A DNA stretch of 64,000 nt, from positions 1 through 64,000 of the forward strand of contig CALXYK010000010.1 of the NCBI GenBank assembly GCA_944392955.1, read 5' to 3'. Numbering within the stretch: the stretch's first letter is position 1; each line of letters begins with the position of its first letter. Below are positions 117-64,000 of this stretch, one piece after another. Both the position numbers and the translations under genes were made by a program. Source of the stretch: an uncultured Alphaproteobacteria bacterium. Lineage in GTDB: Bacteria > Pseudomonadota > Alphaproteobacteria > Rs-D84 > CACZYB01. A model generated the notes under the pieces. It had not been told where the DNA came from. It did no database searches and saw only the letters and a program-made list of their open reading frames with translations.

Positions 117-2222
117 TTAGCCATAAATCCTTTGGTTATAATAAAGAAGTCGTTTCATAACCAAAGATTTTATAGATTTAACATTTGCCTGTGAAACATT
201 TGCGGTGTTTTGTGGTATAGTAGGAATACCACCATCAGTATTACCAGCCCTTTCCCAATCAGCATTTGTTGCATTTAATGGTGTATAGCCCTCATTTACC
301 AAAGTTGGAACACCATCTACATATACAGCCTCTCTTGCTCCTGCATTATTACTTGCAAAAGCATTAGGGTTTTGTGAAGAATTAAGATAAACTTCCTTTG
401 CTGTAATACCAGTAGGATTTAATATTCCATTAAAAGAAGTAAGTTCTGAAACATCAATAGTATGAGTAGTTCCGAAAATAACACTAGATCCCTCCTTTAT
501 ATTTCTTATTATAACCTTGGCTTGGGTAGATGATGCTATTAAATTAACAGGAGTTTTAGCAGGTGCGATTTCAAAATCAATAACACCAGAACCTGCACCA
601 AATCTAATGTCAGAAACATCAGATGACACACGAACATTTGTAACACTTGACATTTCTGTTTTATTTGTTTTATTTGTTCCTATGATATTAACATTTTTAA
701 TACCACCTCCCCCAATCAATAAAGCGGCATTAATGTCAAGATTATAAGCATTACCATTATAATCGTTTTTAGTATACATAGTTTTGCCATTTAAAGCCTC
801 CTTCGCATCAAAATAATGTGCACTTCCATATGACTGGAATCTTATATAATTTACCTCATCACTTCCTATATCAGCATCGATATCATAATATGTTGTTATA
901 AGTTTATCAATACCTAAACCATAAACATTAACATTTTCATCACCCATAAATTGAACATTAACCTTTGGTAATCTATTTAAATCAATATCAGATATTACAT
1001 TTACTTTTCCATCTGTTTCTGTAATATTATCAGAACCAAAAAACAATTTAAAGACATCTGATTGTGAGATATTAGGATCTTTTAATAACTCAAAAGTAAG
1101 TGCCCCTGTAATCGTTGTATTTGAAGGGTCTGGATATATTATCTTTATATCTTCGTTTATGTTTTCATTTTCCTTTAATGCCTTATAAAGTGTTATAATA
1201 TCGTAAAAATACACCCCTTCATCCTCGGTATTTTTAATATTTAAAGAAATATTACCAGTTAATTCTGACACTTTGGTTTTTACTTCATTAACATCGCCTG
1301 AATCTGAAGTATAATCCTCGATATCAATTGACGTTATAGAAACATTATTTTTGTTAAGTTGGAAACTATTTACATAATTTGCTTGGGAAAATGCTGCCTT
1401 ATAATTATCGTTTAAGGTCTTTGTATTCCAATTCAAAGTAGTTGTATTTGCGTCTAAACTCCTTTTTAACTCACTATTCGGTTTATTTTCTGCTTCTGCC
1501 TCTGTTAAAATTGTTTCAAGATTATCCACCTTATAATATTCAAGATTATCCACCTTATAATATTCTGGTTTTTCCTTTTTATCACTTTCTTTTGCTGTGA
1601 GATTAAAGATATTATCGTCATTGAAATCATCAATTAAGTAATTTAAAACCCTTTCTAACTTATTAATAGCAGTAGTAGGTGTATTTTTAACACTTTCTGA
1701 ATAATTATCATAACTTTCTTTGTATGCATTGTAGGAAATTATATAATCTTTATTATAGTAGTCTTGATAGGTATTTCTAGAAATTTCTGCAGCTTCGTAT
1801 GCCTTTTCATAGTTAGTATAATTAGAATAATTATCATCAGGACGCTTATCTTCTAGATCTATTTCTTTTGGATTTTCTTTGGGTATTTCCTCAGGAATTA
1901 TATTAGATAAATTTTCTAACCTGTCAATAAAAGATCCACCTTCTGTTTCTTTGGTTAATGCAACCATAATTTTTCCAATCTCCTCTGGTAATAATTCGTT
2001 ATTTTCATTAACAGTTATAAAATTTTTTATTACCTCAACCTTTGAAGCAAGGGTGACATCCTCTGAAATAGGAATAGGAATAACTGTTCCTGTTGTCGGA
2101 CCCCCATTGCTAGAAACAGCCATTTTGCACCCCGTCATAATGGTTGCACCCCATATCAAAGCAAGTAATATTGAATTAAGACGTTGTTTTTGTGATTTAT
2201 ATTTTTGATTTGTTTTTTTCAT
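117..2222 (-). CDS. Large secreted putative lipoprotein, unknown function
   Basis: This 701-residue protein is not recognised. The N-terminus is basic (residues 1-14), then has a hydrophobic stretch and the sequence TIMTGC with Cys near residue 32, which looks like a lipobox, so it is probably a lipoprotein exported by Sec. Residues about 125-180 are unusually rich in Tyr, Asn and Ser. Around residues 219-236 an eight-residue unit, YYKVDNLE, occurs twice in tandem, matching a 24-bp DNA repeat. The C-terminal third is rich in Val, Ile, Asn and Gly and could be beta-rich, but no domain is evident. The ATG at 2222 is preceded by GGGGG seven bases upstream. The gene stands alone, with its own promoter and terminator. 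A surface adhesin or matrix role is only a guess. Confidence 0.75.
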   Translation of the reverse strand: MKKTNQKYKSQKQRLNSILLALIWGATIMTGCKMAVSSNGGPTTGTVIPIPISEDVTLASKVEVIKNFITVNENNELLPEEIGKIMVALTKETEGGSFIDRLENLSNIIPEEIPKENPKEIDLEDKRPDDNYSNYTNYEKAYEAAEISRNTYQDYYNKDYIISYNAYKESYDNYSESVKNTPTTAINKLERVLNYLIDDFNDDNIFNLTAKESDKKEKPEYYKVDNLEYYKVDNLETILTEAEAENKPNSELKRSLDANTTTLNWNTKTLNDNYKAAFSQANYVNSFQLNKNNVSITSIDIEDYTSDSGDVNEVKTKVSELTGNISLNIKNTEDEGVYFYDIITLYKALKENENINEDIKIIYPDPSNTTITGALTFELLKDPNISQSDVFKLFFGSDNITETDGKVNVISDIDLNRLPKVNVQFMGDENVNVYGLGIDKLITTYYDIDADIGSDEVNYIRFQSYGSAHYFDAKEALNGKTMYTKNDYNGNAYNLDINAALLIGGGGIKNVNIIGTNKTNKTEMSSVTNVRVSSDVSDIRFGAGSGVIDFEIAPAKTPVNLIASSTQAKVIIRNIKEGSSVIFGTTHTIDVSELTSFNGILNPTGITAKEVYLNSSQNPNAFASNNAGAREAVYVDGVPTLVNEGYTPLNATNADWERAGNTDGGIPTIPQNTANVSQANVKSIKSLVMKRLLYYNQRIYG
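1517..1564 (-). repeat. 24-bp tandem repeat, two perfect copies
   Basis: Two exact 24-bp copies (1517-1540 and 1541-1564) lie in frame inside the lipoprotein gene and encode the repeated residues YYKVDNLE. In-frame repeats of this kind can change copy number by slippage without breaking the gene. Confidence 0.9.
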
Positions 2223-2253
2223 GGTATACCCCCATTTGTTAAATTTTTAACCT

Positions 2254-2282
2254 ATAATAAAATAAATATTTATATTTGTCAA
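2254..2282 (-). promoter_or_regulatory. Sigma-70-type promoter of the lipoprotein gene
   Basis: On the minus strand a perfect -35 box TTGACA (2282-2277) is separated by 17 bp from TATTAT (2259-2254). The start codon follows about 30 bp downstream. Confidence 0.8.
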
Positions 2283-2370
2283 GTATTTTGTCAAATGTAA
2301 ATATTCCTATTACTATTTTATTTATATATTATCATAAAAATGACATAATAACAAGAATTTTTTCAAAAAA

Positions 2371-2391
2371 AACCCGATTTAAAATCGGGTT
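2371..2391 (-). terminator. Terminator of the Cys-rich secreted protein gene
   Basis: The inverted repeat AACCCGATTT (2371-2380) / AAATCGGGTT (2382-2391) is followed on the minus strand by a run of T. It lies 27 bp after the stop codon at 2418. Confidence 0.8.
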
Positions 2392-2417
2392 GTGGAGAGA
2401 TAATATAAAAAACACAA

Positions 2418-3869
2418 TTAAATACCATGTATTGAACGAAGGATATTTTCCAATTGATCAAGACATGCATCACATTGCAATTTATTTCCAAAGGTTCCTC
2501 TACCCCCTATATTAAAGGAACTGCCTTCGCGAAGTTTTTTTACCAAATTATCCAATCCCACATCGGAACAGCCAGTTTCGGTGCAACCAGATGTGTTTTT
2601 CATAACCTCTCTTACTATTGCTTCACAATGGTTATTCACATCTTCACATCTAACACATTGACGAACATTAAGATATTTTTTATAAGGTGAAGACTGCCCT
2701 TCGTAGTAATTAGACCCCAAAGGCAACCTTATTAAATATCGTGTATAATAAGGTTCCAATAAATTATCAACTTCCATTGCGATTGATTTGCTATCTGCAC
2801 ATACAGTTTTTCCTGTTTTAGGATCTTTTTTATAAGGAGCAGTTATAGTTGTTTTTGTGAACATACCACAAGGAAGCTTAACATCTCTATCACGAGCAAG
2901 ACCATTAACAGAACTTAAATCATCAGGATTCTCAATATAATTAGTTGTTCCATCGTTTGTTGTTACAAATTTATAATTAAAATCAGGATCCAGACATGAA
3001 CTTTGTGTATTTGGAGTCCAACTATTAACCATTAAATTTACCTCTGGACAAGTACCCCAATAAAGACAAGTCGGATCTGCACCATCCTGATAATCACCAT
3101 AAAGACCACTACTTACACTTCCAGTTCCACTTTCCGCCATAACCCTTACCCTCATTTGATAAATATTTCCTACACTTTTAGTAGCAGTATAACTATTTTG
3201 TCCATCATTTAAGGAGGAACTGCGGGCTCCGAAATAATCCCTTGCTTCGTCAGCATTAGTAATATTTTCTACACTTCTTCCAGGAATACAAATCTTTGGG
3301 AAAGCAGGCGACCAACAAGATGTCATTGTAGAAGTTCCGTCAGCAGTTTCAAGGTTACAACCTTCACTCCTCCAATATTTATAGAACATATTGTTTGAAT
3401 CTACCCCCTTTGTCACGACAGGTGGTTCCGCAATCAAAAAGCCATTCTCATCCAATGTATAGGAGGCAGTTCCCGTAGTTTCACCCTTTGCCAATATGGT
3501 GTTTTCCTGCACCTCCATACCTGCAACAGAATCGCAGATGCCATCCTTATTACTATCCTTACAATTATCGCATTGTCCATCCTTATTCCAATCATAGCAG
3601 AAGTATGGGCTATCTACTGCTTCACCCCATGGGTTTCCATCTGCATCCATTACCTCACGACTTTCCATTGATGGTGCAATAGCACTTTTCATATTGGTGT
3701 TTGGGAGGATGTCGTTTACCTCCTCGTTTATAACCTTTTGAACACTTTCCGTGGAAACGTTTTCGTTGCTGGTATCCTGACTGGTGTCGGCGATACCCTG
3801 CCCCATAACAGATAAACTTAATAAATTAGATAATACTATTACTGATAGTGTCAATCTTTTCTTAGTCAT
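2418..3869 (-). CDS. Secreted Cys-rich protein, unknown function
   Basis: This 483-residue protein is not recognised. It begins with a typical Sec signal peptide (MTKKRLTLSVIVLSNLLSL, cleavage probably near residue 25). Residues about 93-116 hold two short Asp/Asn-rich loops with the sense DxNxDGxC, one after the other and separated by Cys. They resemble the calcium-binding loops of thrombospondin type-3 or dockerin repeats. Cysteines are frequent throughout, and the C-terminus has CxxC-type pairs (CVRC, CDAC), which suggests disulfide bonding outside the cytoplasm. The start follows AAGGAG. The gene is monocistronic, with its own promoter and terminator, and runs divergently from dnaK. Confidence 0.75.
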   Translation of the reverse strand: MTKKRLTLSVIVLSNLLSLSVMGQGIADTSQDTSNENVSTESVQKVINEEVNDILPNTNMKSAIAPSMESREVMDADGNPWGEAVDSPYFCYDWNKDGQCDNCKDSNKDGICDSVAGMEVQENTILAKGETTGTASYTLDENGFLIAEPPVVTKGVDSNNMFYKYWRSEGCNLETADGTSTMTSCWSPAFPKICIPGRSVENITNADEARDYFGARSSSLNDGQNSYTATKSVGNIYQMRVRVMAESGTGSVSSGLYGDYQDGADPTCLYWGTCPEVNLMVNSWTPNTQSSCLDPDFNYKFVTTNDGTTNYIENPDDLSSVNGLARDRDVKLPCGMFTKTTITAPYKKDPKTGKTVCADSKSIAMEVDNLLEPYYTRYLIRLPLGSNYYEGQSSPYKKYLNVRQCVRCEDVNNHCEAIVREVMKNTSGCTETGCSDVGLDNLVKKLREGSSFNIGGRGTFGNKLQCDACLDQLENILRSIHGI

Positions 3870-3901
3870 ATTTTCTCTCCTTATTAAATGAGTATGCTCC
3901 T

Positions 3902-50509: not shown

Positions 50510-50968
50510 TTACCCTTCTATTTGATTTTTTGATATTTTATCCAATATCGCATTAACCAAAGCGGTTTTTGTTTCTGGATAAAATTTATTCGCGATTTTG
50601 GTGTATTCGGAAACAATTATTGGGTGAGGTGTATTTTTCCTGTATAACAACTCAAATGCTCCAGCACGAATAATTGATATTATTAGTTTATCATTTTTAT
50701 TTAAATCTATCTTTAAATATTTTGAAATTTCTTTATCCAAAGTTTCTTGATTTCTGATAATTCCTTTCACCAAAAATGCAAAAAGTTTTTCATTAACCTC
50801 TATTGGTTTGTCTGTATTGCTATCTTCCTCTGATAAAAAAGATTTTGTTTTAAAATATTTCATAGTTTTTGAAGTTAATTTTTCCCCCATAAAAATTACA
50901 GAGTATGTGCATTGAACAACAGCAATCCTTGTATTTAATGTAATAGTTTCTATTTTCAAATCTGGCAT
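50510..50968 (-). CDS. nusB: Transcription antitermination factor NusB
   Basis: A 152-residue all-helical protein that binds boxA RNA with NusE/S10. TRIAVVQCTYSVIFMG at the start, then LLYRKNTPHPIIVSEYTKIANKFYPETKTALVNAILDKI near the end (described in two parts) match NusB's C-terminal block. AAAGGA precedes the ATG. Its upstream region is one copy of an 83-bp repeat. Confidence 0.92.
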   Translation of the reverse strand: MPDLKIETITLNTRIAVVQCTYSVIFMGEKLTSKTMKYFKTKSFLSEEDSNTDKPIEVNEKLFAFLVKGIIRNQETLDKEISKYLKIDLNKNDKLIISIIRAGAFELLYRKNTPHPIIVSEYTKIANKFYPETKTALVNAILDKISKNQIEG

Positions 50969-50972
50969 AGCA

Positions 50973-51055
50973 ATTCCTTTTGTTTAAAATTTCCTACTTA
51001 ATATATAACATTTTTATGTAAAAAAAAAGTATAAAGTTTTATTTGAAATTATTTT
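50973..51055. repeat. 83-bp direct repeat, copy 1 (nusB side)
   Basis: Identical base for base to 52174-52256, 1201 bp away. It contains the ribosome-binding site of nusB and presumably its promoter. The copies flank a single acyltransferase gene. Confidence 0.97.
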
Positions 51056-51062
51056 AGTATAT

Positions 51063-52166
51063 TTAAATAATATTTGTATACTCACTATTATTTATATCGT
51101 TATGTTTTATAAAATGTTTCTTTAAATATTTATATGCGGGTTTTTCAACTAGATAATATGTTATTATACCTATAATAAAAGATACTAGTAAACTAACTGA
51201 TAAACTTAAATAAATATTTGAAATAAATGATGTTTCTTTCCATAAAGTTTTTCCTAAAATAAAAAAAGATAATTGTTGCATTATGTATGTGGAATAAGAA
51301 AACTTGCCTAAAAATCCTAAACTTTTATTATTCAATATTTTAGAAATTAAACCTTTCTTAAAAAGAAATAATATAAATAGAATAATAAACCCTATTATAT
51401 ATTGAATTCCATTTGAATATGTTGGAGTATGAAATAACATAAAACAAAAAAGTATTGCACAAGTAAATAACTCTAAAATACTTATAAAAATAAAAGATAA
51501 TTTTGTATCCTTTCTAACAGGTTGTAATTTATGATATTCGCAATAATTACATATAAAATATCCAATACCTAGACCTGTCAATATCCTTAAAATACCACTG
51601 GGTACCATGGCATTTATAACTATAAAACCTAGATTTCCATTAAATGTGTTAATATGTAAAACTAAACTTAGATAAATTATCAATGCAAAAACTAAATCTA
51701 TATATTTTTTTGAAAAATTTTTAATGAGATAATAAAATAATATCACGCCCCAGAAAAACAAGGAAACGAACCAATTAATTCCTTTATAATCCAAAGTTAA
51801 CCCTGTTGATTCAAGAAAAAATAAACTTAACATATTTACTTGGAAATTTTTATAACCTATTAAAATATAAATGATATTACAAAAAGCATATACCGGCCAA
51901 AGTCTAGCAATTTTATTTTTTGTAAAATCCCACCAGGAAACATCTTTGTTATTTAAAAAATTTTTATATATGAAAAAACCTGCTATAATGCAAAAAAAAT
52001 CAACTATAAAATAACTTTTTGCACAATTAACAGATAATTTTTGGTATAATGAAGAAATATTGGAATTACCTATAAACTTCATTATATTCTCATTTAATAT
52101 ATGGAAATAAACTATAATTAAGCAAAATATAATTCTTAAAAAATCAATGTTATAAAGTCTTGCCAT
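51063..52166 (-). CDS. Acyltransferase family 3 membrane protein (OafA/ExoZ-like), repeat-flanked
   Basis: A 367-residue polytopic membrane protein with about ten membrane segments, starting with RLYNIDFLRIIFCLIIVYFHI. Here Asp, Arg and the HI of the first helix match the R-x-x-A-x-x-x-V-x-x-x-H pattern of acyltransferase-3 proteins that O-acetylate surface sugars. The C-terminus is cytoplasmic and basic. It is even richer in A/T than nusB and sspB and looks acquired. It lies between two identical 83-bp repeats. Copy 2 supplies the same AAAGGAAT ribosome-binding site that nusB uses, so the gene carries a duplicated nusB leader. Confidence 0.88.
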   Translation of the reverse strand: MARLYNIDFLRIIFCLIIVYFHILNENIMKFIGNSNISSLYQKLSVNCAKSYFIVDFFCIIAGFFIYKNFLNNKDVSWWDFTKNKIARLWPVYAFCNIIYILIGYKNFQVNMLSLFFLESTGLTLDYKGINWFVSLFFWGVILFYYLIKNFSKKYIDLVFALIIYLSLVLHINTFNGNLGFIVINAMVPSGILRILTGLGIGYFICNYCEYHKLQPVRKDTKLSFIFISILELFTCAILFCFMLFHTPTYSNGIQYIIGFIILFILFLFKKGLISKILNNKSLGFLGKFSYSTYIMQQLSFFILGKTLWKETSFISNIYLSLSVSLLVSFIIGIITYYLVEKPAYKYLKKHFIKHNDINNSEYTNII

Positions 52167-52173
52167 TATAACT

Positions 52174-52256
52174 ATTCCTTTTGTTTAAAATTTCCTACTT
52201 AATATATAACATTTTTATGTAAAAAAAAAGTATAAAGTTTTATTTGAAATTATTTT
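52174..52256. repeat. 83-bp direct repeat, copy 2 (sspB side)
   Basis: Perfect copy of 50973-51055. Its right end includes the -35 box of the sspB promoter, while the -10 lies outside, so the duplicated segment was once the nusB-sspB intergenic region. Confidence 0.97.
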
Positions 52257-52272
52257 TTCTTTGCTTTATATT
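52244..52272 (+). promoter_or_regulatory. sspB promoter
   Basis: TTGAAA (52244-52249) and TATATT (52267-52272) are 17 bp apart. The -35 box lies inside the 83-bp repeat and the -10 outside it. Confidence 0.7.
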
Positions 52273-52293: not shown

Positions 52294-52788
52294 ATGCAAA
52301 ACCAAGTATCAGACTTTTTAAATTATAACAAAATGTTGGATAAGGCATTATTGGATATTGCAAAAAATGCTTTGCAACAGGTGGCATTTTCCGGATTATC
52401 CGGTGGACACTATTTTTATATAACTTTTAAAACTGATGCAAAAGGGGTTGTAGTTCCTGATTTTTTGTTAAAGCAATATCCTGATACCTTAACAATAGTA
52501 ATTCAACATGAATTTTCAAATCTTTCTGTATCGGATAAAGAGTTTGCTGTTACCCTATCATTTAATAACCATAATTACCACATAATTGTGCCGTTCTCAT
52601 CTTTGATTGTTTTTTCAGATCCTTCGGTTGATTTTTCTTTGTCTTTCAATCCTACAAATACAACCGAAGATTTATCAAAGGAAGATGAAGAACCGGAACT
52701 TTCCTATACTGATGATGATAGTAATATAATTTCTATGTCAGATTTTATGAAAAAACATTCATCACCTTCTGATGATGATGTGGCATAG
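52294..52788 (+). CDS. sspB: SspB-like ClpX adaptor (alphaproteobacterial type)
   Basis: SspB tethers ssrA-tagged and other substrates to ClpXP for degradation. The 164-residue protein has the alphaproteobacterial core: LLDIAKNALQQVAFSG, GGHYFYITFKTDAKGVVVPD (about 35-54), LTIVIQHEFSNLSVSDKEF, and VPFSSLIVFSDPSVDFSLSF (about 97-116). An acidic flexible linker and a short C-terminal peptide follow, where the ClpX-binding segment is expected. AGGAG precedes the ATG. Its 3' end overlaps the converging exchanger gene by 44 bp. Confidence 0.88.
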   Translation: MQNQVSDFLNYNKMLDKALLDIAKNALQQVAFSGLSGGHYFYITFKTDAKGVVVPDFLLKQYPDTLTIVIQHEFSNLSVSDKEFAVTLSFNNHNYHIIVPFSSLIVFSDPSVDFSLSFNPTNTTEDLSKEDEEPELSYTDDDSNIISMSDFMKKHSSPSDDDVA

Positions 52789-55665: not shown

Positions 55666-56961
55666 CTAACCTATTTTAAAGTAAATAAATCCTTTTTCCT
55701 TTAATCTATCTTTATTATACTGATTCCTTCCATCGAAAATCACTGGTGTTTTCATAATAGACTTCATCTTTTCAAAATCAGGTCGTCTGAATTCATTCCA
55801 TTCAGTTAATAACAGCATACAATCAGTATTTTTTAATGCTTCATAAGGATTAGATGCATATTCAATTTTATCTCCAAAAATTTTTTGTGAAACATCCATA
55901 GCCTTTGGATCGTATGCCTGTATTTTTGCTCCTAATTTAAGCAATTCATTTATTATAGTTATGGATGGAGCTTCTCGCATATCATCAGTTTTGGGTTTAA
56001 AAGACAATCCCCAAATTGCTATTGTTTTATTTGATAAGTCGGATGAAAAATATTTTTTTATTTTTTCTATAAATAAATATCTTTGTTTTACATTAATTTC
56101 ATCAGCTGACTTTATAATATTCATATCTAAACCATTATCTGCCCCTGTTCTTATCAAAGCCTTTACATCTTTTGGAAAACAACTTCCGCCATATCCTAAA
56201 CCAGGGAAAAGGAATTGATTTCCAATTCTGCTATCTGTTGACATACCTATTCTGACCATATCTGCATCTGCTCCAACAGATTCACAAAGGTTCGCTATTT
56301 CATTCATAAATGATATTTTTACCGCAAGAAATGAATTAGATGCATACTTTGTCATTTCGGCAGATTTAACATCCATTAAAATAATTCTGTTCGCTGTTCG
56401 CAAAAATGGAGAATATATATCCTGCATAATCTTAGTTGCCTTTTCGGAATTACTTCCAATAATAACTCTGTCCGGAGATAAGAAGTCAGCAACAGCATGA
56501 CCTTGTTTTAAAAATTCAGGATTTGAAACTACATCAAACGAATGCGATGTATTCTGTCTTATTATATCAGCAACCTTTTCAGCAGTGCCGACAGGAACCG
56601 TGGATTTATCTACGATAACTTTGTATCCATTCATAGCCTTTGCAATAGATTTTGCCACCTCTAACACATATTGTAAATCAGCGGAACCATCTTCGCCTTG
56701 TGGAGTTCCTACTGCAATAAAACAAACCTGAGAATTTTTTACTGCGGTATCTATATCTGAAGAAAAAGTTAACCTTTGTTCAGAGAAATTGGATTTTACA
56801 ATTTCTTCTAATCCTGGTTCGTAAATCGGAATGATACCCTGTTGAAGCTTTTGCAATTTTTCCTGATTATTGTCAATACAAATAACTTCGTTGCCCATAT
56901 CTGCTAAACAAGCACCAGCAACTAAACCTACATAACCTGTTCCTATAACTGTTATTTTCAT
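55666..56961 (-). CDS. ugd: UDP-glucose 6-dehydrogenase
   Basis: Oxidises UDP-glucose to UDP-glucuronate with two NAD+. The 431-residue protein has a Rossmann start (MKITVIGTGYVGLVAGACLA), the middle KYASNSFLAVKISFMNEIAN, the catalytic Cys in GYGGSCFPKD (about 256-265) and FKPKTDDMREAPS. It supplies sugar nucleotide for the adjacent glycan locus. Its ATG overlaps the previous gene's stop by 4 bp (ATGA), so it is the last gene of that operon. Confidence 0.98.
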   Translation of the reverse strand: MKITVIGTGYVGLVAGACLADMGNEVICIDNNQEKLQKLQQGIIPIYEPGLEEIVKSNFSEQRLTFSSDIDTAVKNSQVCFIAVGTPQGEDGSADLQYVLEVAKSIAKAMNGYKVIVDKSTVPVGTAEKVADIIRQNTSHSFDVVSNPEFLKQGHAVADFLSPDRVIIGSNSEKATKIMQDIYSPFLRTANRIILMDVKSAEMTKYASNSFLAVKISFMNEIANLCESVGADADMVRIGMSTDSRIGNQFLFPGLGYGGSCFPKDVKALIRTGADNGLDMNIIKSADEINVKQRYLFIEKIKKYFSSDLSNKTIAIWGLSFKPKTDDMREAPSITIINELLKLGAKIQAYDPKAMDVSQKIFGDKIEYASNPYEALKNTDCMLLLTEWNEFRRPDFEKMKSIMKTPVIFDGRNQYNKDRLKEKGFIYFKIG

Positions 56962-58259
56962 TTTTTATTCCTTTTAATTTTTATTTTTAATCCAAACAAT
57001 GTAATTATTTTAAATTTTCTATTATCCGAATTTTTGATTGAAAATATATATTCCCAAAATACCTTTGATTTACTTTTTTGACTCTTTTCTATAAAAGAAT
57101 TAATTGTTTTATATAAATTCGGTGAATAAGTTATTCTTATTTTTTTTAATTGTTTTTTATATGTTTTCTTTATTTTTCTTGAAGGCTTTCCATCTATAAT
57201 TTTTTTTATCTTTAAAAAACCTACATTAGTATCTTTGTTATGTAATTTTTGAGATAAAATTAAATCTTTTTCTCTTTCTTCTCTTATTTCAAAATTATTT
57301 GCTAACTTTGAAATAATATTAGCCCCAATATCGCTTCTTACTATTACACTACTTAGGCCTTCAATATCTTTATTGTTTTCAATATAGTTATCACCCAAAG
57401 AAATATCGGAATTTTTATTAAATTTATCAAGACAATACAAACATCGTTCTAATATAAAAAAATCTTTTAGTTTCATTCTCTCTGTATTAGGCAAATCTAA
57501 GATATCACCATTTGTGTATTCAATTCTAACATTTCCTGGCCAACCACCTGCCAATTTTGTTCTAAAAAATAAATTTTTTAATTTTTTATTTCGACTTTCT
57601 GGATGTTGCCTGAAATATTCAACGACTCCATAATTCATTGTTTTATCGCAAAATAAACCTATCAATAAATAATTATTTCTATTTAAATTTTTTAATTTAA
57701 TAAAATTAGAAATTCCAGAAATTGTACAACCTGTTCCTATTAATATTACTTTTTTATCGGGATTATTTAAAATGTATTTGCAACTATTAAAATGTGAAAC
57801 GGTTAAATATCTACTTTTTTGTGTCTCAGATAAGTCCATATTTTTATCAAAATATTTTGTTTCAAGTTGAGTATTATAAGAATATCCTTCAACCAAAAAA
57901 GCACAATCATACTCATCTTGTTTTAAGAGATTTCTTACAATTTCTGTTACTACTCCTCCACTTGTTGCATTTTGTAAAAGATTTTTATCTTTTGTTTTAA
58001 TAGAATAAATTTTTTTATACCCACCCAGAATATTCTGTTCCACGGATTTATTTGAATCATAACTTTTAAGATTATTTACAGGACAAGTTTTTAAACATAA
58101 TCCACAATCAATACACTTACTAGATATATGAGGCTGGTAATTATAATTTTTTTTTTGTACATCAATACAATTTTGAGGACAAATAGCTCTACATATGCCA
58201 CATTCTATGCATAAATTTTCTTTTAACACTATATTTATATTGTTATTTTTATTATTCAT
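56958..58259 (-). CDS. F420-hydrogenase-beta-like Fe-S protein of polysaccharide locus
   Basis: A 433-residue cytoplasmic protein. Two [4Fe-4S] ferredoxin motifs open it: CIECGICRAICPQN (about 17-30) and CIDCGLCLKTCPVN (about 49-62). A coenzyme-F420-hydrogenase beta-subunit-like domain follows, with ATSGGVVTEIVRNLL and LIGTGCTISGI. Such proteins often sit beside polysaccharide pyruvyl transferases in surface-glycan loci; the reaction is not established. The C-terminus carries the tail IFSIKNSDNRKFKIITLFGL, followed by KIKIKRNKK, which is shared with the glycosyltransferases upstream. Its ATG overlaps the pyruvyl-transferase stop by 8 bp. Confidence 0.85.
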   Translation of the reverse strand: MNNKNNNINIVLKENLCIECGICRAICPQNCIDVQKKNYNYQPHISSKCIDCGLCLKTCPVNNLKSYDSNKSVEQNILGGYKKIYSIKTKDKNLLQNATSGGVVTEIVRNLLKQDEYDCAFLVEGYSYNTQLETKYFDKNMDLSETQKSRYLTVSHFNSCKYILNNPDKKVILIGTGCTISGISNFIKLKNLNRNNYLLIGLFCDKTMNYGVVEYFRQHPESRNKKLKNLFFRTKLAGGWPGNVRIEYTNGDILDLPNTERMKLKDFFILERCLYCLDKFNKNSDISLGDNYIENNKDIEGLSSVIVRSDIGANIISKLANNFEIREEREKDLILSQKLHNKDTNVGFLKIKKIIDGKPSRKIKKTYKKQLKKIRITYSPNLYKTINSFIEKSQKSKSKVFWEYIFSIKNSDNRKFKIITLFGLKIKIKRNKK

Positions 58260-59452
58260 CTAAATAACTCCATAATGTATTAAAAATGTTTTCCTTTTGT
58301 ATTCTTATAACATTTTCCTTAATTTTATTTTTTTCTTCATCTTTATGAAGAATTAAATATTCTAATATTTTTACTAAATTATTATTATCAATTCCGTTTC
58401 TGGCATCAAACATATAAGTTTCTTGTCCTAAATTTTGAGCCAACTCAATATATTTCACCGCCCATCCAATAATTATGCAAGGAATATATTGTTTATATGC
58501 ATGTACTATTGAATGAAATCTTGAAGAAATTAAAAAAATCAAAATTACTTAATAAATTTGAAAAATCTATACAATTAAAATATTCATCAATAAATATAAC
58601 ATCTGAATTATCCTTAAAATATTCTTTTATATTTTTACAAATATCTATATCACATAAATCATAATATGTTATATAAATCTGATATCCTTTACTTAATAAC
58701 ATTTTAATGCAATTTTGATAATTATCATATAATTTATTATTATCAGATCTTTCAAACACTCTTTTATTAGGGATAATTAAAACTTTTTTAGCAGAAGAAT
58801 GAAAATTAAATGTTTTATTTATATTTTTCCTATAAATATGCTTGTAAGGCTTATTAGATTCTAAAACTATGTCATTTGCAAGAACAATATTATTTAATCC
58901 ATATGATTTTAACAAATCATAACCATCTTTTTCTCTACAAAATATTTTATCTACTGCTGATAAAATATTTATTAATTTTTTATTAGATACTGAAAAATTA
59001 AAAGGTCCAAACGATTGAGGTAATAAAAATATCTTTTTATTATATTTTTTAGCGATTTTAATTAAATCTAATAAACGTTTATTTGGTTTATTCCCCCATT
59101 GAGATGATAATGCATATCCGCTTATATCTAAAAAAACATCATTATTTTTATAAATATTAACAAAATCGTATTGAGCTAATTTTCTTTTGTTATTTGTTAG
59201 AGAATATATTACTTTTTTTAGTTTGAATACTAAATATTTAAAAAAGCTTAATGAAGCATCAGATAAGTTTTTATTTTCTTTAACTATTGTTATATTATCA
59301 AAATCATTTATGTTTATTTTCTCAAATCCATGCAGACATAATACTGTAATTTTAGAGTTTTCATCTCTATTTTTTATTTCAGTTATTAAAGTATAAAGCA
59401 TAGATTCTGCCCCTTTGTTGGCAAAACCCGCTCCTGTTATTAAATATCTCAT
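58252..59452 (-). pseudogene. Polysaccharide pyruvyl transferase, split by a single-base frameshift
   Basis: The first part (59452 down to about 58533) begins MRYLITGAGFANKGAESMLY, the N-terminus of WcaK/AmsJ-like polysaccharide pyruvyl transferases, with KIFLLPQSFGPF and KIFCREKDGY further on. At a run of seven T (minus strand; A run 58532-58538) the frame is lost and a stop follows at 58493. In the next frame the protein continues with LISSRFHSIVHAYKQYIPCI and IIGWAVKYIELA to 58252, exactly the family's conserved C-terminal block. With six T the reading joins cleanly as NFDFLISSRFHS, giving one protein of about 400 residues. The cause may be mutation, phase variation or a sequencing error. 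Confidence 0.9.
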
Positions 59453-60595: not shown

Positions 60596-61459
60596 TTAAA
60601 ATGTTATTTTTTTTAGTATTGGAATTATACCAAATAATTTATAATGTTTTTCTGTTTCCCATTCATAAACTTTTAATATTGTTATACCAAATATTATAAA
60701 TTTATGTTTCCTTTTAAGTTGTAATTTAAATGGAATTTTAATATTATTTTCCTTTACAAAATTTAGCATATAGTCCTTTGCCCAAATATGATCCATTCTT
60801 TTAAAATTATTTAAAGTGTTTACTATGGAATTTGGATTTGCTCTATAATAATAAAAAGCACCTGGAACCGCGATAATATTATTTAATTTAGAAATTATAT
60901 CTATTGAAAATGGGACATCTTCAAAATATTTACCTTGTTCAAATCTTATATTATGTTTAAGTAGTTTAGAAGATCTATATATTTTATTCCAAACATAACA
61001 ACATCTAGGGATATTTAAAATATCAAATTTTTCCTGTAATGTAGTTGCAAGTTGTTCACTTTCTATTTTTAAACGTAAATGAATTTTGTTTCCATAAACT
61101 CTTTTTATAGGGGCACATGCAATATCTGAATTTGTTGTAATTGCAGTATTATATAAGTTTTTATAAAAATTTGAGTCTATCCAATCATCCGAATCTACAA
61201 AACCAATAAATTCCCCTGTTACATTTTCTATTCCTGTATTTCTTGCTCCTGATAATCCTTTGTTTTCTTGGTTGATAACTTTTATCCTTTTATCTTTTTT
61301 TGCATATTCCTCTAAAATACTTAAAGAATTATCTGTGGAGCCATCATTTACACAGATTATTTCTATATCTTTTAATGTTTGGTTTATTACACTATCCAAA
61401 CATTCGCTTAGATATTTTTCTACATTATATACCGGTATTATTACACTTACCTTAGGCAT
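60596..61459 (-). CDS. Family-2 glycosyltransferase
   Basis: A 287-residue GT-A enzyme. PKVSVIIPVYNVEKYLSECL (residues 2-21), IICVNDGSTDNS with the nucleotide-binding Asp, and GFVDSDDW (about 89-96) holding the DxD-like motif are clear. The first 60 residues are nearly the same as in the next two upstream glycosyltransferases. The C-terminus is different from theirs and ends EKHYKLFGIIPILKKITF. The start is the ATG in ATGCCTAA, which overlaps the upstream gene's stop; GGAG lies eight bases before it. Donor and acceptor sugars unknown. Confidence 0.92.
   Translation of the reverse strand: MPKVSVIIPVYNVEKYLSECLDSVINQTLKDIEIICVNDGSTDNSLSILEEYAKKDKRIKVINQENKGLSGARNTGIENVTGEFIGFVDSDDWIDSNFYKNLYNTAITTNSDIACAPIKRVYGNKIHLRLKIESEQLATTLQEKFDILNIPRCCYVWNKIYRSSKLLKHNIRFEQGKYFEDVPFSIDIISKLNNIIAVPGAFYYYRANPNSIVNTLNNFKRMDHIWAKDYMLNFVKENNIKIPFKLQLKRKHKFIIFGITILKVYEWETEKHYKLFGIIPILKKITF
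61280..61459 (-). repeat. 180-bp glycosyltransferase head repeat, copy A
   Basis: The first 180 bp of this glycosyltransferase gene are nearly identical at DNA level to 62295-62474 and 63370-63549, far beyond what protein conservation requires. The repeat continues across the start codon into the end of the upstream gene. Confidence 0.85.
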
Positions 61460-62474
61460 GTTTATTTCTCCTTTTAATCTTTATTTTTAAGCCACACAAT
61501 GTAATTATTTTGAATTGTTTATCGCAAGAATTTTTTATTGAAAATATACTTTGTAAAAAAGAACGATTGTGAAAAAGTATTAAATTTCTGTAATGTTTAC
61601 TTAAACCCATTTTATCAAATCCATTATTTAATAAATATTCTAATACAATATTATATTCATTTTCATAATGACTTATAGTATGTAAATTATGTCTACATGT
61701 ATCCACTACTAAATTAAAATAACTTTTTTTTACACATCCATAAACATGATGGGATATTAAAAAATCTCTTAATGAAGTCAATGCCATTGTGAAATCTAAT
61801 GGGAATTTATAATTAGTACTTTGTGAATTATTTTTTATTCCTATTCTATAACATACCAAATAATCACTAATAACTGAAATTTTTTTAGCAACAATTAAAG
61901 ATGCCGAAGTAAAATATAAATCATTGGTTCTATAAATTTCTTGAAATTTTAAATTATTATCATTTACAAAAGAGGTTTTTAATAATTTATTCCAACTACA
62001 ATTATCAAAAATATTAAAAATTTTATTGGGAATATCCTCATAATTAAAAACTTTTTTGTGTATAAATTTATTGATGTTTCGTGCATTTATATATTTTCCT
62101 GTGGATGTACAAAAGTATTTAAAATTACATATGGCAATATCTGAATTAATATTTATAGCATTGTCATATAACTTTTCTAACATATCTAATTCAAAAAAAT
62201 CATCAGAATCTAAAAAACTAAGATAGTCGCCTTTTGCAACTTCTAAACCTTTGTTTCTTGCCGCACCTGCACCTAAATTTTTTTGTTTAATAATCTTTAT
62301 CCTTTTATCTTTTTTTGCATATTCTTCTAAAATACTTAAAGAATTATCTGTGGAGCCGTCATCTATACATATTATTTCTATATCTTTTAATGTTTGGTTT
62401 ATTACACTATCCAAACATTTGCTTAGATATTTTTCTACGTTATATACTGGTATTATCACGCTTACCTTAGGCAT
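61452..62474 (-). CDS. Family-2 glycosyltransferase with shared C-terminal tail
   Basis: A 340-residue GT-A enzyme. The head is PKVSVIIPVYNVEKYLSKCL, then IICIDDGSTDNS and SFLDSDDFFELDM (DxD-like, about 88-100). The middle is unlike its neighbours. The tail reads IFSIKNSCDKQFKIITLCGL, then KIKIKRRNKHA. The start is the second of two ATGs (62474), since GGAG is eight bases away and the sister gene has ATA at the first position. It overlaps both neighbours by ATGCCTAA. Confidence 0.92.
   Translation of the reverse strand: MPKVSVIIPVYNVEKYLSKCLDSVINQTLKDIEIICIDDGSTDNSLSILEEYAKKDKRIKIIKQKNLGAGAARNKGLEVAKGDYLSFLDSDDFFELDMLEKLYDNAININSDIAICNFKYFCTSTGKYINARNINKFIHKKVFNYEDIPNKIFNIFDNCSWNKLLKTSFVNDNNLKFQEIYRTNDLYFTSASLIVAKKISVISDYLVCYRIGIKNNSQSTNYKFPLDFTMALTSLRDFLISHHVYGCVKKSYFNLVVDTCRHNLHTISHYENEYNIVLEYLLNNGFDKMGLSKHYRNLILFHNRSFLQSIFSIKNSCDKQFKIITLCGLKIKIKRRNKHA
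62295..62474 (-). repeat. 180-bp glycosyltransferase head repeat, copy B
   Basis: Second copy of the head repeat. It differs from copies A and C at a handful of third-codon positions. Confidence 0.85.
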
Positions 62475-63549
62475 GTTCATTTCTCCTTTTAATCTTTATT
62501 TTTAAGCCGAACAATGTAATTATTTTATGCTTTGCATCACTAGAATTTTTTATTGAAAATATATATTCTACAAATTTAAGATTTTTTGTATAAAAGTATT
62601 TTTTTAACTTATCAATGTCTTTTGATAATAAAATATCATAGAATCTATATCTAATTAGTTTACTATCTGGATATTTATATTTAGATAGTATATCTATAGA
62701 TTTATCAATTGCATGCTTAACAATATTAACATTATTACAACAAAAAAAACTTTCCCAAGAGTGTTCTAATCCTTTATATATTGTTGAGAAAAATAATCTA
62801 TCATATTTATCTTTATTATTTATATTTTTATTAAAGAAATCTAATGTATCTAGTCTACTATTTAACTTGGAATTTATTTGCGCAATTAATTCTTTTTCTG
62901 ATAAAATTTTATGAGATGTAGAATTTTCTCTTAATCTATAAGTATAATAAGCATCATTGACTAGTACAAAATTATTGGCAATAGAGACAAATTTATATAA
63001 AAAAGTCACGTCCTCTAACCATCTTATATTTGCAAACTTAATATTATATTTATCTATCAAATCTTTTCTATAAATAATAGACAGCCAACTAGATGCCAAA
63101 TTTTTATAAGGAATTTTAGTAATTTTTGATGCCTTCGCTATTTTTAAATTTGTATTTGTAAATTTTATTTTTTGTTTTTTTTGATATAGTTGCTTTAAAT
63201 CTCCTTTGATAAAATCATACTTATTTATTTTAGATTTATTATATAATTTTTTAAAAAAATCTAAATCCACATAATCATCAGAATCTACAAAACCAATATA
63301 TTCTCCCTTTGCAACTTCTAAACCTCTATTCCTTGCGACTCCTGCACCTAAATTTTTTTGTTTAATAACCTTTATCCTTTTATCTTTTTTTGCATATTCT
63401 TCTAAAATATTTAATGAATTATCAGTAGAGCCGTCATCTATACATATTATTTCTATATCTTTTAATGTTTGGTTTATTACACTATCCAAACATTCTCTTA
63501 GATATTTTTCTACATTATATACCGGTATTATTACACTTACCTTAGGCAT
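62467..63549 (-). CDS. Family-2 glycosyltransferase with shared C-terminal tail
   Basis: A 360-residue GT-A enzyme with head PKVSVIIPVYNVEKYLRECL, IICIDDGSTDNS and GFVDSDDYVDLDFF. The middle (about 115-325) is distinct and Lys/Asn/Tyr-rich. The tail is IFSIKNSSDAKHKIITLFGL, then KIKIKRRNEHA. Start at the second ATG as for its neighbour, and 8-bp overlaps at both ends point to translational coupling. Confidence 0.92.
   Translation of the reverse strand: MPKVSVIIPVYNVEKYLRECLDSVINQTLKDIEIICIDDGSTDNSLNILEEYAKKDKRIKVIKQKNLGAGVARNRGLEVAKGEYIGFVDSDDYVDLDFFKKLYNKSKINKYDFIKGDLKQLYQKKQKIKFTNTNLKIAKASKITKIPYKNLASSWLSIIYRKDLIDKYNIKFANIRWLEDVTFLYKFVSIANNFVLVNDAYYTYRLRENSTSHKILSEKELIAQINSKLNSRLDTLDFFNKNINNKDKYDRLFFSTIYKGLEHSWESFFCCNNVNIVKHAIDKSIDILSKYKYPDSKLIRYRFYDILLSKDIDKLKKYFYTKNLKFVEYIFSIKNSSDAKHKIITLFGLKIKIKRRNEHA
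63370..63549 (-). repeat. 180-bp glycosyltransferase head repeat, copy C
   Basis: Third copy of the head repeat. Copies B and C also share sequence further into the gene (coding for the GAGxARNxGLEVAKG region). Confidence 0.85.
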
Positions 63550-64000
63550 GTTCATTTCTCCTTTTAATCTTTATTTTTAAGCCGAACAATGTAATTATTT
63601 TATGTTTTTTATCATCTGAATTCCTTATGGAAAATATATTTTGAGAAATAAATTTTAAAAGTAAATGGTTATAAACTTTTTGAACTAAATTCGCCTTATA
63701 AATTAATTCATAATCTATTGATTTTATGGTTTTATATAATTGTGTAGTAAAAATATCTTTCAATGTGAATATTTTAAAATGTTGATATAACCTTTCGTAT
63801 GTTAAGCAATAAAGTATATCAAGTTTATGTTTTTTCGCAAAATTAAAATTATCCGTAATTCCTTTTAATAAATCTCTTTTCTTTTTTGTTGTCCATATAA
63901 CATCTTTATGTCCTATTCTAAAAAGATATGTGATTTTTGAAATTGCATAAAATTGTTTAGCCTTATACATTGCCTTTACAAAAAAAGGCGGATCTTGAAA
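63542..64000 (-). CDS. Glycosyltransferase, C-terminal part only (window edge)
   Basis: The reading frame is open to the end of the window, giving 153 codons and no start. The first residues, FQDPPFFVKAMYKAKQFYAI, match the conserved region late in family-2 capsule-type glycosyltransferases, so an ATG at 63970 is internal. The tail IFSIRNSDDKKHKIITLFGL plus KIKIKRRNEHA is the fourth copy of the shared C-terminus. It is coupled to the next gene by ATGCCTAA. Confidence 0.88.
   Translation of the reverse strand, partial: FQDPPFFVKAMYKAKQFYAISKITYLFRIGHKDVIWTTKKKRDLLKGITDNFNFAKKHKLDILYCLTYERLYQHFKIFTLKDIFTTQLYKTIKSIDYELIYKANLVQKVYNHLLLKFISQNIFSIRNSDDKKHKIITLFGLKIKIKRRNEHA

Follow-up and report, generated by a model that had tools for sequence, protein, structure and literature searches.

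How does a single gene come to lie between two housekeeping genes, enclosed by a perfect direct repeat, and does such an arrangement act as a switch? The question is raised by the window analysed here, a 64-kb stretch of DNA from a small (0.9 Mb) gut-type alphaproteobacterial genome, in which an acyltransferase gene separates nusB from sspB (Table 1). The original prediction that two identical 83-bp repeats bracket exactly one gene held in full: the copies match at 83/83 bases, their identity stops exactly at the ends listed, and the space between them is occupied by one ORF. The copies lie 1201 bp apart, measured start to start, and the 1118-bp insert (51056-52173) consists of the 1104-bp ORF plus 7 bp on each side. 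No other near-identical direct repeat occurs in the 64-kb window. Across the whole genome (915,102 bp) a search recovered only these two copies, its other matches being two of 36-38 bases at 82-83%. No Rfam families were found in the region. Our overall reading, which we consider very probable, is that a foreign acyltransferase gene was recently inserted here with an 83-bp duplication of promoter DNA, that expression signals were kept on both sides, and that the gene may be lost or amplified.

Table 1. Coordinates of the repeat pair, the inserted gene and its native neighbours.
Feature	Position	Strand	Evidence
nusB (transcription antitermination factor), native neighbour	50510..50968	-	PF01029 NusB 3.2e-22; adjoins sspB in four congeners
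Repeat copy 1: nusB leader and Shine-Dalgarno	50973..51055	.	83/83 identical to copy 2
7-bp junction, acyltransferase stop codon / repeat copy 1	51056..51062	.	
Acyltransferase-3 gene, 367 aa, insert without its own promoter or Shine-Dalgarno	51063..52166	-	PF01757 1.1e-26
7-bp junction, repeat copy 2 / acyltransferase start codon	52167..52173	.	
Repeat copy 2: leader and Shine-Dalgarno now the acyltransferase's, plus sspB -35 (52244-52249)	52174..52256	.	
sspB promoter TTGAAA-17-TATATT, -10 outside repeat	52244..52272	+	consensus match; pattern kept in congener alignment
sspB (ClpXP adaptor type), native neighbour	52294..52788	+	PF04386 7.2e-32

The encoded protein matches Pfam Acyl_transf_3 over profile positions 2-324 of 326 with 94.2 bits, the cut-off being 31 bits, and this near-full-length match bears out its earlier assignment as an acyltransferase-3. 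It is the one PF01757 member in this genome. The R-X10-H motif of the first transmembrane helix, called absolutely conserved in AT3 domains (PMC9833829), is present as R11 and H22, both invariant in protein alignment A1. The RXXR motif at the cytoplasmic face of helix 3 is highly, not absolutely, conserved (PMC9833829); here this position reads KIAR, with the first Arg replaced by Lys and the second (R88) kept. A sequence search returned no close solved structure. Some 2-14 kb away lie genes for a sulfatase-family membrane protein, a UDP-glucose dehydrogenase, a UDP-galactopyranose mutase and several glycosyltransferases, of which the sulfatase alone was named by family search and the others from reading translations. 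Given these polysaccharide genes nearby, a surface polysaccharide is a reasonable acceptor, and family and neighbourhood together suggest that the enzyme most likely O-acylates a cell-surface sugar.

Further along the same contig (C10), a tandem array of glycosyltransferase-2-like genes occupies 60596-63970 and continues to ~65.6 kb. The N-terminal parts of these genes are nearly identical (81-90% DNA identity), the C-terminal halves are unrelated, and several of the genes end in a common short motif, FSIKNS-x-D-x-KHKIITLFGLKIKIKR. A different, 4Fe-4S-like protein (56958-58259) finishes with this motif as well, which suggests modular shuffling of C-terminal parts. At 58252-59452, an ORF named from its translation as polysaccharide pyruvyl transferase-like is apparently split into overlapping frames (58493-59452 and 58252-58542), possibly through a frameshift or an assembly error.

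The state of the site without the gene is seen in four congeners (G001, G002, G003 and G005), which are all the congeneric genomes where the sspB-nusB locus was found. In each of them the two genes are immediate, divergent neighbours separated by ~130 bp, and the acyltransferase is absent from the site; G005 carries a 29%-identical relative at another locus. When the window flanks are joined over one repeat copy, they align end to end with the four congener intergenic regions. By this alignment, the repeat is native promoter DNA bounded by the nusB Shine-Dalgarno on one side and the sspB promoter spacer on the other, and the locus as a whole is best described as a recent gain of a single gene in which most of the native sspB/nusB promoter region was duplicated. 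The ancestral order sspB-repeat-nusB, deduced originally from the window itself, is the one found in 4/4 congeners with the locus, and the comparison of related genomes proposed at that time yielded an empty site, free of the acyltransferase, every time. A clean loss in every congener could in principle look alike, deletion being scarless, but needs more events.

The same comparison bears on the age of the duplication. The repeat differs from the G001 intergenic region by 11 mismatches and 5 gap positions over ~83 positions, and the other congeners differ more, against 0 differences between the two copies in the window. This disparity indicates that the copies arose long after this genome and G001 diverged, or that gene conversion occurred recently; such conversion could hold old repeat copies identical.

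Read on the minus strand, both copies of the repeat end in the same AAAAGGAAT Shine-Dalgarno-like run, located upstream of nusB and of the acyltransferase, so that the two genes have duplicated leaders, as had been claimed. On the other side, TTGAAA in copy 2 lies 17 nt upstream of a TATATT that is outside the repeat, before sspB, which confirms the earlier placement of the sspB -35 within copy 2; in copy 1, the duplicate of this -35 (TTGAAA, 51043-51048) is separated from the sspB -10. These promoters are consensus matches of a kind that is no commoner in this DNA than after shuffling, although the aligned congeners preserve the sspB pattern. Directly ahead of the acyltransferase start codon stand the 7 nt AGTTATA, which hold no Shine-Dalgarno, and AAAGGA at the end of copy 2 is at a suitable distance from that start codon. 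Translation of the acyltransferase would therefore depend on the duplicated nusB leader, and its transcription most likely proceeds from the duplicated nusB promoter region. At 51043-51071 (+), the orphaned sspB -35 of copy 1 meets an AATAAT in the insert at 17 nt, giving a new promoter-like site that may direct antisense transcription of the acyltransferase gene at its 3' end.

The acyltransferase itself stands apart from its surroundings. A comparison with 201 genomes of the order gave 33% identity for its nearest relative, and searches of viral contigs, phages, plasmids and one-per-species genome contigs returned no close donor. Its G+C content of 21% is the second lowest among 204 sampled ORFs; its codon choice is typical, and the nearby polysaccharide genes are nearly as A+T-rich. 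Isolation and composition together make horizontal gain likely. Repeats comparable to the 83-bp pair were absent from the flanks of the relatives in G071, G084, G048, G009 and G005, where the longest was a 26-nt pair at 77%. The closest relative in the order (L041, genome G071, 761-3871) is also a lone gene and sits between a DnaQ-like exonuclease gene and a VirB6/TrbL-like gene, both named from translations.

We propose that a foreign acyltransferase-3 ORF, with 7 bp on each side, would have entered the divergent sspB/nusB promoter region, and that 83 bp of this region would have been duplicated during the insertion. Copy 2 would then give the captured gene the nusB promoter region and a ribosome-binding site while keeping the sspB -35, and nusB would still be served by copy 1. 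As neither neighbour lost its signals, the insertion would have cost little and the gene would have been expressible at once. Two routes could lead to this outcome: insertion-duplication, through a single crossover of a circle carrying the promoter region, with any longer duplication trimmed later, or template switching during repair, which would copy the gene and then return upstream. The present 83 bp may be the remnant of a longer duplication. Genes for ComEC and DprA are present in the genome, which is compatible with DNA uptake but does not prove it; a Ku gene was not found in this genome, and end joining through Ku is for that reason unlikely.

Insertion-duplication or template switching is probably to be favoured over transposition. 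The insert holds its single gene and no transposase, and no terminal inverted repeats were found at its ends, whose best end-to-end match scores no better than shuffled ends; on both counts the insert is as originally described. Target duplications made by transposons are usually far shorter than 83 bp. An insertion sequence or transposon was rejected on these grounds and because the repeat is native promoter DNA, which, together with the lack of a fold and of an array, also led to rejection of an integron gene cassette: the predicted fold of the 83-bp repeat is weaker than that of 196/200 shuffles. A recombinase acting in trans might nevertheless have moved an integron-like cassette or non-autonomous transposon, the 83 bp being attachment sites or an extreme target-site duplication, and a single promoterless gene with tight 7-bp boundaries and direct repeats on both sides has the look of such an element. 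Tyrosine recombinases do occur in the genome, but there are only three matches, two of them strong, as expected for what are presumably XerC and XerD. Moreover, the supposed attachment site is the sspB/nusB promoter region, of which congeners that lack the gene have one diverged copy; the repeat has no fold and no further copy in the genome, and the insert has no terminal inverted repeats, so that we regard movement in trans as extremely unlikely. We give very little weight to another idea, made conceivable by the ORF-exact insertion (7 bp per side) and the clean divergent-promoter duplication, namely that an undescribed repair- or competence-linked route might capture single foreign ORFs and copy a host promoter in one step, leaving a built-in exit.

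An assembly artefact, by which the acyltransferase would owe its position to a chimeric join or a collapsed array and the repeat would stem from assembly, draws some plausibility from the records themselves. The genome is in 17 contigs and its congeners are metagenome-assembled genomes, one of them from a water-deer rectum sample; this genome probably has the same origin, so alleles may have been mixed or a tandem array collapsed, and a repeat of 83 bp is of a length at which short-read graphs can tangle. Against this, the repeat is found nowhere else in the genome, so that such a graph could form only if it truly adjoined the gene on either side; each junction is exact to the gene and looks functional, and the contig spans 137 kb. 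An artefact is thus very unlikely, and the recent insertion of a foreign gene with duplication of promoter DNA stays the preferred reading.

The behaviour of the inserted gene would be governed by the repeats. Recombination between the copies, dependent on RecA, whose gene is present in the genome, or arising through replication slippage, would delete the gene and one copy, removing 1201 bp and restoring the ancestral site; it may instead amplify the acyltransferase in tandem. RecA-mediated deletion or amplification between the copies is plausible, as judged from this geometry. The clean deletion foreseen originally, which leaves the nusB and sspB promoters intact, agrees with the layout, one repeat copy being equivalent to the empty site of the congeners. 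The further suggestion of an on/off switch for surface modification is not supported, as recombination would amount to one-way loss (or amplification) and no second such locus turned up in a sample of 542 kb: across 272 kb from this genome and 270 kb from the four congeners, no other gene lies between near-identical intergenic repeats. The other repeats in the 542 kb fall within coding sequence or are duplicated fragments of a broken gene (contig C4, 85-87 kb). At this last place (L051; G000 contig C4, 84.3-87.1 kb), 54-bp (96%) and 40-bp (92.5%) pieces of a long ORF recur 1.2-1.6 kb away, where no long ORF is present; this looks like a coding duplication in decay.

A selected gain/loss or phase switch, with the repeats maintained because recombination turns surface acylation off in some cells and natural transformation or an excised circle restores it, would make use of the clean-excision geometry, with both promoters surviving excision, and of the RecA, ComEC and DprA encoded in the genome. 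Comparable instability has been described for lag-1 of Legionella (PMC3766260) and cagA of H. pylori (PMC5358911). Loss at this locus is one-way, however, unless DNA is re-supplied, and recency alone explains the identity of the copies; since no other repeat-bracketed gene occurs in the sampled 542 kb, nothing suggests a dedicated system. We consider such a switch unlikely, and the locus is best read as the product of a single recent insertion event, one that is incidentally easy to undo by loss of the gene. Its interest lies in the snapshot it offers of a foreign gene added between housekeeping genes with the neighbours unbroken. By duplication of the promoter region, the newcomer would gain expression signals and the residents keep theirs, at a place where surface chemistry could be lost cleanly.

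Several described systems resemble this arrangement in part. For lag-1 of Legionella pneumophila, which encodes an LPS O-acetyltransferase, looping out is assumed and deletion is reported at 1e-6 to 1e-7 (PMC3766260), and the gene has spread by recombination (PMC8660822). It too is a single O-acetyltransferase gene, variably present and near a partial duplication of a neighbouring ORF. Unlike the present gene, lag-1 is inside an LPS cluster and has a transposase in some strains. What is duplicated there is part of a gene, in contrast to the 83 bp of promoter DNA repeated here between two housekeeping genes, where loss is a prediction. The cagA gene of H. pylori also lies between direct repeats, termed CHA-ud, and occurs in zero to four copies, attributed to recombination between the repeats (PMC5358911). 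In that case, which concerns a different gene and bacterium and several repeat types, copy-number change was shown experimentally.

Whole-gene cassettes between conserved neighbours are known as minimal mobile elements, as they are described where cited (Saunders and Snyder 2002, in PMC4269198). The present locus is similar in combining an acquired whole-gene cassette, conserved neighbours and no mobility genes. Minimal mobile elements are moved by homology in the flanking genes and carry different cassettes in different strains; here a single cassette is known, duplication has affected the flank itself, and this class was rejected because the four congeners have an empty site and none an alternative cassette. 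In E. coli, short direct repeats enclose the H47 genomic island, which can undergo RecA-independent excision and needs no recombinase of its own for it (PMC5426353), but it is an island with attL/attR sites and measured excision, whereas excision here is predicted from sequence. What the locus has in common with lag-1 and cagA is a whole gene enclosed by identical direct repeats, together with a one-copy empty allele, seen here in congeners of other species. The arrangement is an isolated case of a known kind.
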